A stretch of 64,000 nt of DNA. Origin: Actinomycetota bacterium (lineage in GTDB: Bacteria > Actinomycetota > UBA4738 > HRBIN12). Location of the stretch: positions 1-64,000 of the forward strand of contig DASSCU010000033.1 in the NCBI GenBank assembly GCA_035697485.1. Reading direction: 5' to 3'. This document shows, in pieces, positions 43,536-47,740 of the stretch. Position numbers and translations under genes: made by a program. The notes beneath the pieces were generated by a model. The model did not search any database. It was not told the DNA's origin and worked only from the letters and a program-made list of their open reading frames with translations. The stretch's first letter is position 1, and every line of letters starts with the position of its first letter.

Positions 43536-44309
43536 TCAGGCGAGCGGGAGCGCTTCGCGGAAGTCTCGCGCCAGGTCGAGCATGCCCTCGCGGTCGCCCT
43601 GGACCAGGCGAGCCATGAGGGCGCTGCCGACGATCACGCCGTCGGCGAACGCGCCGGCGTCCCGCGCTTGATCGGGCGATCCGATCCCGACGCCGACGAG
43701 GAGCGGCAGGTCGGTGAAGGGGCGAAGGGCGGAGACCAGCTCCTCCGCGATGCCGCCCAAGGTATCCCGCGCGCCGGTGACCCCGTAGGTCGCCACGCAA
43801 TACACGAACCCGCGCGACCTGGCGGCGATCTCGGCGAGCCGCGCGGGTGCCGCTCCGGGTGCCGCCAACAGCACGGCATCGACGCCCCTGTCCGCACACG
43901 CCTCATCGAACGACTCCGCCTCGTCGACCGGCAGGTCCGGCACGATGATGCCCGCGACGCCTGCGTCGCGCGCCTCGTCGAGGAACGCCTCGACCCCCCG
44001 GCGGAGCACCGGATTCACGTAGGTCATCACGGCGACGGGGGTGTCGAGCGCCGCCTCTCGGATCGTCGCGAGCACGTCGGAGGGACGGGTGCCGGCCGCG
44101 AGCGCGGCCGTGGACGCCTCCTGGATCACCCCCCCGTCCATCACCGGGTCGGAGTGGGGCACTCCCACCTCGATCGCGTCGGCGCCCGCGTCGGCCACGG
44201 CACGCAACAGCGTGGCGTCGACGGCTGGGAAGCCACCGGTCAGGTACGGGACGAACGAGCGCCCGCCGGCGTCGCGCCGCTCCCGGAGCGCGGTCTCCAG
44301 GGCCCCCAT
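43536..44309 (-). CDS. trpA: Tryptophan synthase alpha chain
   Basis: TrpA cleaves indole-3-glycerol phosphate to indole and glyceraldehyde-3-phosphate; indole passes to TrpB through a tunnel. The 257-residue barrel carries catalytic Glu47 (AIEVGVPHSDP) and Asp58 (PVMDGG), PYLTGGFP near residue 21-28, the phosphate-binding LLVGVGIGSPDQA and DGVIVGSALM. Start ATG overlaps the trpB stop as TGATG. It is the last gene of the trp cluster here. Confidence 0.97.
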   Translation of the reverse strand: MGALETALRERRDAGGRSFVPYLTGGFPAVDATLLRAVADAGADAIEVGVPHSDPVMDGGVIQEASTAALAAGTRPSDVLATIREAALDTPVAVMTYVNPVLRRGVEAFLDEARDAGVAGIIVPDLPVDEAESFDEACADRGVDAVLLAAPGAAPARLAEIAARSRGFVYCVATYGVTGARDTLGGIAEELVSALRPFTDLPLLVGVGIGSPDQARDAGAFADGVIVGSALMARLVQGDREGMLDLARDFREALPLA

Positions 44310-45520
44310 CAGGCGCGCGACCCCAGCGCCGCGAGCACGGTATCGAGGTCCTTGTCGCCCCGGCCGGAGAGGCAGACGAGGACCCGGGCGCCCTCGGGCA
44401 GGGGGCGGTGCAGCAGCCAGCCGATCACGTGGGCGGGCTCCAGGGCGGGCAGGATCCCTTCGGTGCGGGCCAGCGCCTGGAAGCCCGCGAGCGCATCGTC
44501 GTCGGAGGCATTCACGTATTCCGCGAGGCCCTCGTCGTGCAGCCATGCGTGCTCGGGGCCCACCCCCGGGTAATCGAGCCCGGCCGAGATGGAATGGGTC
44601 TCGACGATCTGCCCATCGGCGTCCTGCAGCAGGTACATCATCGCTCCGTGCAGCACGCCTGGCTGCCCCTGGGTGATCGAGGAGCAGTGCTCCCCCAGGT
44701 TCATGCCGCGGCCGCCGGCCTCGACCCCGATCAGGCGCACGCCGGGGACGCCGACGAACGCCGTGAACATGCCGATCGCGTTGGATCCTCCTCCCACGCA
44801 CGCGACGACGACCTCGGGATCGCCACCGAGCCGCTCGGCGTACTGGGCCCGCGCCTCGTCACCGATCACCCGCTGCAGGTCTCGCACGAGCTGCGGGAAC
44901 GGATGCGGCCCCACCACCGATCCGATGATGTAATGGGTGTCGGTGACCGTGGCCGCCCAATCTCGCAGCGCTTCGTTCACGGCCTCCTTGAGCGTCTTCG
45001 TGCCCGCAGTCACCGGCACGACGTCGGCGCCGAGCAGCCTCATGCGGGCGACGTTCGGTGCCTGGCGGCGGGTGTCTTCCTCACCCATGTAGACGACGCA
45101 GGGCAGCCCGAGCAGCGCACAGGCGGTGGCGGTGGCGACCCCGTGCTGCCCGGCGCCGGTCTCGGCGATGATGCGCCGCTTCCCCAGTCGCTTCGCGAGC
45201 AGCGCCTGCCCGAGGGCGTTGTTGATCTTGTGGGCTCCCGTGTGGGCGAGGTCCTCGCGCTTCAGCCACACCTCGTAGCCGAGCTCGGCGGAGAGACGGA
45301 CCGCGTGGGTGATCGGCGTCGGGCGCCCCACGAAGTCGCGGCTCAGGGCTCCGAGCTCGCCGCGGAAGCCGGCGTCGTCGCGCAGGTGCGTCCACGCGCC
45401 GGCGAGCTCGTCGAGCGCGGGGATCAACACCTCGGGCACGTACCGGCCCCCGTAATCGCCGAAGCGTCCTCGCGCGTCGGGCACGGTCGGCACGGGTGAC
45501 GTGGCGGTGTCAGAACTCAT
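44309..45520 (-). CDS. trpB: Tryptophan synthase beta chain
   Basis: The 403-residue PLP enzyme condenses indole with serine. Lys98 in [16 protein letters not shown] is the Schiff-base lysine, [19 protein letters not shown] is the conserved start, [20 protein letters not shown] follows, and [16 protein letters not shown] is the PLP phosphate loop. TrpB1 type by length and by these motifs. It overlaps trpC by 11 bases and trpA by 1. Confidence 0.98.
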
Positions 45521-46322
45521 GCCGGTCGCCTCCTCGTTCGGATCGTGGGTGGGCGCCCCCGATGAGCTCGCGCAGGGTGGCGCGCGGGTCGGCGGCGCGC
45601 ATCAGGGCCTCGCCCACCAGGATGGCAGAAGCTCCGGCGTCGACGGCCGCCTCGACGTCGGCGCGGCTCCTCACGCCCGACTCGAAGACGGCCATTCGGT
45701 CCTCGGGGATCCGTCGCACACGATCGAGCGCACGATCGACGTCGACGTCGAGTGACTCGAGGTCGCGGGCGTTGACCCCGATCACCTCGGCCCCGCTCGC
45801 CATCGCGCGCTCGAGCTCGTCGTCGGCGTGGGTCTCGACGAGGGCATCCATGCCGAGGTCTCGCGCGATCGCCAGCATCGCCGTCAGCTCGTCGTCGGTG
45901 AGCGCCGCGGTGATCAGCAACACGGCGTCGGCGCCGTGGGCCCGCGCCTCGATCACCTGACCCGGATGGACGAGGAAGTCCTTGCGCAGCAACGGTACGT
46001 TCACGCTCACCCGCACGGCGTCGAGGTCCGCGAGCGACCCTCGGAAGTGTCGCGGCTCGGTGAGCACCGAGATCGCGGCGGCGCCTCCGTCGGTGTAGGA
46101 GGTCGCCTGCGCGACCGGGTCGGCGCCGTCGGCGATCGGGCCGGCGCTCGGCGACGCGCGCTTCACCTCGGCGATCAGTGCAGGCGTCCGCGCGCGCAGC
46201 GCGGTGAGGAACCCGCGCGCCGGGGGCCGGGCTCCGGCGCGCGCGAGCAGCGCCCCCTCGTCGAGCGGATGCTCGTCGAGGTCGCGTCGCACTCGGGTGA
46301 CGAGGTCGGTGAGGAATCCCAT
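45510..46322 (-). CDS. trpC: Indole-3-glycerol phosphate synthase
   Basis: TrpC converts CdRP to indole-3-glycerol phosphate. The 270-residue barrel shows [87 protein letters not shown] and [14 protein letters not shown], including the catalytic Glu-Val-Lys and RKDF lysine. ATG at 46322 is chosen by homology; TAGACT lies 10 nt upstream, so the gene may have its own near-leaderless promoter. Confidence 0.97.
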
Positions 46323-46362: not shown

Positions 46363-47076
46363 TCACCCGAGGGCGCTGCCCAGGGCCGCCTCGAGCTCGA
46401 TACCATCCTCGAGGGCCGCACGCCCAACGACGGCGCCGACCGCGCCTGCCGCGCGGAGCGACGCGAGATCGTGCATGCTCGCGATTCCCCCGGCGGCGAT
46501 CACCGGACGACCCGCCCGGACGACGCGCTCGACCACCGCCACGTCGGGTCCGTCGAGGGTCCCGACCCGGGCCACCGCGGTCACGAGGAATGCCCGCGCG
46601 CCGCCCCCCGCGAGCCAGCCGAGGGTTTCGACGAGCGGCAGATCTACGCCGTCAGTCCCTCGAGGGCGGATGCGGCCGTCGTCGACCTCGATGCCGATGA
46701 ACAGCCGGTCGGCGAGCGAGGCGACCGCCTCGATGGCGGCGGCCTCATCGACGAGGGCCGCCGACCCGAGCACGACGCGGTGCGCGCCCGCCTCGAGCGC
46801 GGCGCGCGCCTGGTCGATCGTGCTGATGCCGCCGCTCGCTTGCACTTGCACGCCGAGCGCCGCGATCGCATGCACGACGTCGAGGTTGCGCGCGAGACCG
46901 TCGAAGGCGAGGTCCATGTCGACGACGTGCACCCACCGGGTCCCTGCCGCCACATACGCGGCGGCGGCGGCGAGTGGGTCGCCGTCGAACGCGCTCGCGG
47001 GAACCGGACCGCCCGGCGAATACGACGCGAGCCGCCCGCCGGCGACGTCGATCGCGGGGATCACCTCGAAGCCCAT
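46363..47076 (-). CDS. HisA/PriA-like barrel protein with altered active site
   Basis: The 237-residue barrel aligns along its length with HisA/PriA: VIPAIDVAGGRL with Asp10, WVHVVDMDLAFDG, VQASGGISTIDQA, VVLGSAALVD, IAAGGIASMHDLA and VVGRAAL. The family's second catalytic aspartate, in the KDGTL motif, is Val171 (AVARVGTLDGPD), a third conserved aspartate is Glu130 (IGIEVDDG), and the LVQG segment after the first aspartate is missing. In actinobacteria PriA serves both histidine synthesis and the TrpF step, which would fit its place before trpC; the altered residues make that isomerase activity doubtful. TAGGGT sits 7 nt before the start, suggesting a leaderless message. Confidence 0.85.
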   Translation of the reverse strand: MGFEVIPAIDVAGGRLASYSPGGPVPASAFDGDPLAAAAAYVAAGTRWVHVVDMDLAFDGLARNLDVVHAIAALGVQVQASGGISTIDQARAALEAGAHRVVLGSAALVDEAAAIEAVASLADRLFIGIEVDDGRIRPRGTDGVDLPLVETLGWLAGGGARAFLVTAVARVGTLDGPDVAVVERVVRAGRPVIAAGGIASMHDLASLRAAGAVGAVVGRAALEDGIELEAALGSALG

Positions 47077-47116: not shown

Positions 47117-47740
47117 ATGGAGATGCCCGTCTTCGCGCTCCACACCGTGCTGTTCCCCGGCCGGACGATGGGATTGCGCGTATTCGAGCCACGCTACCGG
47201 GCCTTGATGGACGACGTGCTCCCGGCGGGCACGTTCGTCGTGGTCGCGATCCGGCACGGACAGGAGGTGGGCGGCCCCTACGAGGCCTACCGCGTCGGCG
47301 TCACGGTCGCGGTCGAGGCGCACGATCGCGACGAGGACGGATCCCACCGCCTGCGCATCGGCGGCCGGGATCGCTTCGCCCTGATCGCGCCGAGTGCCCA
47401 CGACCCGTATCCGGTCTGGCAGGTCGAGCCTTTCCCGGACGAGGGTGGGGCCGGCACCGACGATGTCGAGGCCGCCGCCGAAGCGCTCTGGGCGTACCTG
47501 TCGGTCACCGGCGAGCCCGCCGGGCAGGTCCCCGCGATCCCCCACGATCCCGTGACCGCGAGCTACGTGCTCGCCGCGGCCACTCCCGCCCTCGTGCCGA
47601 CGCAGCAATCGTTGCTGGAGGTGGCCGGTGCGGGGGAACGGCTCTCCGCGGTGCGCGCGATCTTCCGGCGTGAGACCGCCCTCGTGCGTGCCCTGGGGGC
47701 AGGGGCGGGGGGCGCCGGCCTCGACGTGAGCCCCAACTAG
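47117..47740 (+). CDS. LON substrate-binding-domain protein
   Basis: The 207-residue protein consists of a stand-alone Lon N-terminal (LAN) domain: MPVFALHTVLFPGRTMGLRV followed by FEPRYRALMDDVL is the diagnostic start, HRLRIGGRDRFALI the middle strand, and a helical bundle fills the second half. It has no ATPase or protease domain. Stand-alone LAN proteins are widespread and of unclear function; a chaperone-like or proteolysis-adaptor role is a guess. It converges on dnaE and the two stop codons share CTAG. Confidence 0.9.
   Translation: MEMPVFALHTVLFPGRTMGLRVFEPRYRALMDDVLPAGTFVVVAIRHGQEVGGPYEAYRVGVTVAVEAHDRDEDGSHRLRIGGRDRFALIAPSAHDPYPVWQVEPFPDEGGAGTDDVEAAAEALWAYLSVTGEPAGQVPAIPHDPVTASYVLAAATPALVPTQQSLLEVAGAGERLSAVRAIFRRETALVRALGAGAGGAGLDVSPN

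Follow-up and report, generated by a model that had tools for sequence, protein, structure and literature searches.

The gene that stands before trpC in the 64,000-nucleotide stretch of DNA analysed here (hereafter, the window) most likely encodes a HisA-derived enzyme specialised in the TrpF step, in an uncultured actinobacterial lineage that has no trpF. Sequence comparison argues strongly for this function, to which we assign a probability of about 0.9. The absence of trpF from the host genome and from its whole family makes the ordinary TrpF substrate, PRA, the obvious one for this protein.

The trp-linked gene and the pathways of its host

The gene opens with ATG and codes for a 237-residue product. 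The first-pass annotation had read it as a HisA/PriA homologue heading trpCBA, and this reading is borne out by a PF00977 profile match over residues 4-224 (146.6 bits against a cut-off of 23.6) and by the presence of trpC, trpB and trpA directly downstream (Table 1). The product lies well below both equivalog cut-offs of the family, with 145.6 bits against 228.95 for TIGR00007 (HisA) and 112 against 306.45 for TIGR01919 (bifunctional PriA, hisA-trpF), and gives no PF00697 (TrpF) match at E<=1 in the profile search. Its AlphaFold2 model is confident (pLDDT 92.7, pTM 0.91), and the solved structures nearest to it are those of PriA, among them the rCdRP complex 2y85 (TM about 0.88). The trpA start codon and the trpB stop share one base (TGATG), and the order dnaE, hisA copy, trpC, trpB, trpA is conserved in relatives with long-enough contigs, G008 included. 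In these relatives the hisA copy immediately follows dnaE, whereas in the window a LON substrate-binding-domain gene intervenes between the two on the opposite strand.

Table 1. Genes of the trp cluster and active-site codons in the window
Feature	Position	Strand	Basis or remark
HisA/PriA-family paralogue, first trp-cluster gene, predicted TrpF-only (PRA isomerase)	46363..47076	-	profile matches, alignment, AlphaFold2 model
trpC (indole-3-glycerol-phosphate synthase)	45510..46322	-	IGPS match 262 bits; 40 bp after hisA copy
trpB (tryptophan synthase beta)	44309..45520	-	PALP match 158.7 bits; overlaps trpC end
trpA (tryptophan synthase alpha)	43536..44309	-	Trp_syntA match 239 bits
LON substrate-binding-domain gene	47117..47740	+	PF02190
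Asp10 codon (= PriA D11, catalytic base position), invariant	47047..47049	-	alignment
Glu130 codon GAG (= PriA D130), E in all 14 family members	46687..46689	-	sequence, alignment
Arg139 codon (= PriA R143, PRA-side arginine), invariant	46660..46662	-	alignment
Val171 codon GTC (= PriA D175 / Salmonella HisA D176 / T. maritima HisA D169)	46564..46566	-	sequence, alignment

A search of the genome for intact hisA/priA and trpF, proposed earlier as a check, recovered a separate intact hisA adjoining hisF on contig C5 and no trpF. Profile searches found no TrpF (PF00697) match in the host genome at E<=1, nor in the 17 genomes of its family (f1) at E<=0.01, and the control for this search returned a match in 14/14 genomes. 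A hidden trpF, looked for in the genome and in the family, was not found. The host also has a trpD gene, which scores 395 bits, and a trpE-like one, which at 476 bits stays below its strict cut-off; with trpC, trpB and trpA lying next to the hisA copy, TrpF is thus the only one among the steps checked that is without its usual gene.

The homologue search of the order yielded 27 genomes, 17 of which, the host included, belong to family f1. Among these mostly incomplete metagenome-assembled genomes, the trp-linked gene is present in 14/17, and a fifteenth (G010) holds its C-terminal part adjoining trpC at a contig end; the copy was not seen in G011 (85% complete) and G017 (81% complete). The two genomes of the order with a TrpF match, G002 and G019, carry it between trpC and trpB and do not have the hisA copy, so that copy and trpF are mutually exclusive in our sample. 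In the sister family f4 the copy lies downstream of dnaE in three genomes, and upstream of trpC where the contig reaches. Two of these three, G025 (locus L116) and G026 (locus L118), show the trp-linked copy and no his-operon hisA or hisF, an absence that, although both genomes are incomplete, fits a role in tryptophan rather than histidine synthesis. Most other f4 genomes are also without PF00977 matches over the cut-off. The content of these incomplete genomes suggests that f4 has lost histidine synthesis.

Substrate-binding residues and substituted acids

In PriA, residues R143, S81 and H50 serve PRA, and W145, R85, T105 and R19 serve ProFAR (PMC13055916, PMC4732765). Within f1 (PriA numbering) the PRA side is kept (H50 and R143 in 14/14, S81 in 13/14), as is D11 (14/14). 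On the ProFAR side W145 is lost and T105 replaced by Ser in all 14 sequences, R85 is lost in 12/14, and R19 is kept in 6/14 and lost in 8/14; the window protein has S, S and T at the R85, T105 and W145 sites. Along the PriA motif D11-R19-E109-D130-R143-G144-W145-D175 (PMC4732765) it reads D-S-V-E-R-G-T-V and so departs from it. ProFAR-binding residues are thus lost while PRA-binding residues are kept, and the trp pathway is present while trpF is absent, a combination that points to a TrpF-only enzyme.

These observations bear on the proposal that the protein is a bifunctional PriA performing both the HisA and the TrpF steps, redundantly with hisA. Family membership, a PriA-like Ser81 and the nearest solved structures are all in its favour, and the window protein shares with bifunctional PriA (TIGR01919) the fold, the equivalents of Asp11, His50, Ser81 and Arg143, and the phosphate sites. 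It has, however, neither Trp145 nor Thr105, D175 or D130, and R85 is usually lost in its family; its TIGR01919 score is 112 against a cut-off of 306, the genome contains an intact hisA, and the change D176V abolishes all HisA activity in the Salmonella enzyme (PMC7591586). We therefore regard bifunctionality as very improbable.

Aligned with M. tuberculosis PriA, residues Asp10, Glu130 and Val171 of the window protein correspond to D11, D130 and D175, so that the initial residue readings (Asp10 kept, the KDGTL aspartate turned into Val171 and another conserved aspartate into Glu130) are exact. The Val171 codon, GTC, is a single base away from an Asp codon. Glu130 occurs in 14/14 and Val171 in 12/14 members of f1; among the other HisA/PriA-family sequences of the alignment (n=85), D130 is found in 85/85 and D175 in 84/85, the exception being Glu. 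The two f1 sequences without Val171, those of G009 (locus L016) and G008 (locus L017), read RRDS, carry a two-residue deletion in loop 6, have Asp at the Val171 position and retain Glu130. Val171 is consequently not essential to the group. It had been suggested that an alignment might reveal the catalytic aspartate at a neighbouring position, and no conserved replacement acid for D175 was found near strand 6 in the f1 alignment: position 171 (PriA numbering) is A, S, N or P in the family, with D in two members, and the aspartate at 175 in the window protein's own GTLDG is not conserved.

The first-pass annotation had envisaged a specialised or repurposed barrel, perhaps with a new substrate, or a scaffold for the pathway. 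Specialisation stands, given that the genome also holds an intact hisA, to which this gene is paralogous, and that the gene has lost its ProFAR residues. A different substrate is an idea encouraged by two changed active-site acids that are specific to the lineage, but the protein retains the residues for PRA, its gene is tied to the trp cluster, and without it the pathway would have no enzyme for the TrpF step; we judge this idea, too, very improbable. The loss of the strand-6 catalytic aspartate could likewise mean that the protein is catalytically dead and serves the Trp enzymes as a scaffold or regulator. Against this, the family shows no variation at Asp10, His50, Arg139 and most glycines of the phosphate sites, TrpF catalysis can accommodate an Asp-to-Val change at the strand-6 site (PMC7591586; cf. 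PDB 2w79), and the pathway would be left with no TrpF, all of which renders a dead scaffold extremely improbable. With trpF absent from genome and family, neither a new substrate nor a scaffold role is needed to explain the protein.

Laboratory precedents and a possible mechanism

The strand-6 aspartate is used for catalysis by HisA, PriA and TrpF alike, and PriA D175 corresponds to the catalytic aspartic acid D176 of Salmonella HisA (PMC9088769). Its replacement does not speak against TrpF activity: among the single changes by which Salmonella HisA gained that activity in a selection of 22,000 mutants, D176V came up most often (18 observations; PMC7591586). An engineered T. maritima HisA carrying D127V and D169V (PDB 2w79, from work entitled 'Establishing wild-type levels of catalytic activity') reads EKVGTL where the window protein reads ARVGTL. 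Taken together, the TrpF activity gained through D176V and the D169V change of 2w79 make the loss of D175 compatible with a HisA turned TrpF. Both variants share with the window protein the Asp-to-Val change at the strand-6 site and a retained strand-1 Asp. The strand-5 site is different: laboratory HisA variants (2w79; PDB 2cff, D127V) have Val, Ala or Gly in place of Asp, and the TrpF-active ones have thereby had the charge at D127/D129 removed, whereas the natural protein keeps an acid there as Glu. This acid argues against the TrpF reading to the extent that it could repel the PRA carboxylate unless shielded by Arg139. Simulations of PriA show R143 forming a bridge between D130 and D175 and screening the carboxylate of PRA (PMC9088769). 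Given that bridging arginine, the joint invariance of Glu130 and Arg139 makes Glu130 a candidate for a relocated acid.

The course of events under the TrpF-only reading begins with a hisA/priA-type gene coming to lie before trpC, as its paralogy, its location and the absence of trpF show. The copy no longer has the residues for binding the second half of ProFAR and, in f1, D130 has become E and D175 has become V. By homology, PRA would be held by His50, Ser81 and Arg139, with Asp10 serving as the catalytic base. The proton donated in PriA by D175 might come from Glu130, held by Arg139, or from the anthranilate carboxylate of the substrate, and the histidine step would be left to the hisA copy beside hisF. 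Engineered HisA variants are reportedly TrpF-active, with the carboxylate of the substrate proposed as the acid. As a tentative proposal, with somewhat less than an even chance of being correct, we put forward a natural PRA isomerase without the strand-6 aspartate, in which the donor has moved to the strand-5 Glu130 (held by Arg139) and evolution has fixed the D-to-V switch of laboratory selection.

Divergence of the trp-linked copies and their relation to known TrpF-only enzymes

Pairwise dN/dS values are 0.17-0.29 for the trp-linked copies and 0.05-0.12 for the his-operon copies, and the trp-linked gene is thus under purifying selection, somewhat looser than that on hisA. An incomplete metagenome-assembled genome and two changes at usually invariant sites might have hinted at a decaying gene, or at an assembly or sequencing error. 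The same states nonetheless recur in 12-14 genomes with intact frames and with the dN/dS range just given, leaving this explanation with a practically negligible probability. Conservation and dN/dS rule out decay of the window gene as such.

A subfamily profile run over a sample of 397 Actinomycetota genomes scored 308-339 bits in f1 and at most 217 bits in all else, and five matches from the phylum, in all of which W145, D130 and D175 are present, proved to be HisA/PriA-type proteins of the ordinary kind. In a phylogenetic tree that leaves out the Actinomyces SubTrpF sequences, the trp-linked copies of f1 and f4 are joined (99/96), and SubTrpF2 (100/99) and the his-operon copies (97/96) branch separately from them. 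The f4 form still has D130 and D175 and has lost W145, R85 and T105. The loss of ProFAR residues, being common to both families, probably preceded the D130E change, which is confined to f1. The D175V change requires two events on the best tree, in which the inner f1 branches are weak, and it may have been gained once in f1.

Known TrpF-only members of the family offer close parallels. SubTrpF2 of O. murale (locus L102) complements trpF and not hisA, and has changes at R19, R85, T105, W145 and T170 (PMC13055916). As with the window copy, SubTrpF2 of the Ornithinimicrobiaceae co-occurs with HisA in the absence of trpF and is changed at R85, T105 and W145 (PMC13055916). It retains D130 and D175 in our alignment, however, in contrast with E130 and V171 in the window protein, and it is found outside any trp or his cluster, whereas the window copy is the first gene before trpC. 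The window copy is not a member of the SubTrpF2 clade (100/99), and this separation suggests that the two became specialised in the same way independently of each other. SubTrpF of Actinomyces is likewise a TrpF-only PriA-family enzyme in which the W145 equivalent and Arg83 (= R85) are changed or missing (PMC5404923), with Asp9/Asp169 given as catalytic residues in a legend of that work. It is described, however, as having arisen from a priA retained in gene-losing genomes, whereas the window copy is a paralogue beside an intact hisA. True TrpF (PF00697) has the same predicted reaction and pathway as the window protein and differs from it in that its base is a Cys, where the window protein presumably uses the strand-1 Asp. 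In T. maritima TrpF this base is Cys7.

Several Gemmatimonadota-type genomes (loci L071, L078, L096 and L100, also L095 and L113) have, in addition to hisA and hisF, a third gene of PF00977, in which W145 and some of R85, T105 and T170 are changed, D130 is kept and D175 is kept (Glu in L095). No trpC, trpB or trpA match lies near this gene, and the six genomes of this type that were checked (G027-G030, G033 and G034) have no TrpF match. It is possibly an independent TrpF replacement. In the Chloroflexi CF_114 genome a hisA-like match (L115) is apparently frame-broken, and the genome has a TrpF match (L125).

The passage from HisA to TrpF is a leading model for new enzyme function after gene duplication, and it has been studied largely by laboratory selection and engineering. 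In f1 the same experiment appears to have been run in nature, in a trp-operon paralogue with a D-to-V change at the position that selection alters most frequently. The forms of f1 and of its sister family f4, which keeps both aspartates, provide a natural series of stages. Annotation by family-level match would call the window gene hisA and leave trpF missing. The enzyme itself offers a direct test of PRA isomerisation without the usual general acid.
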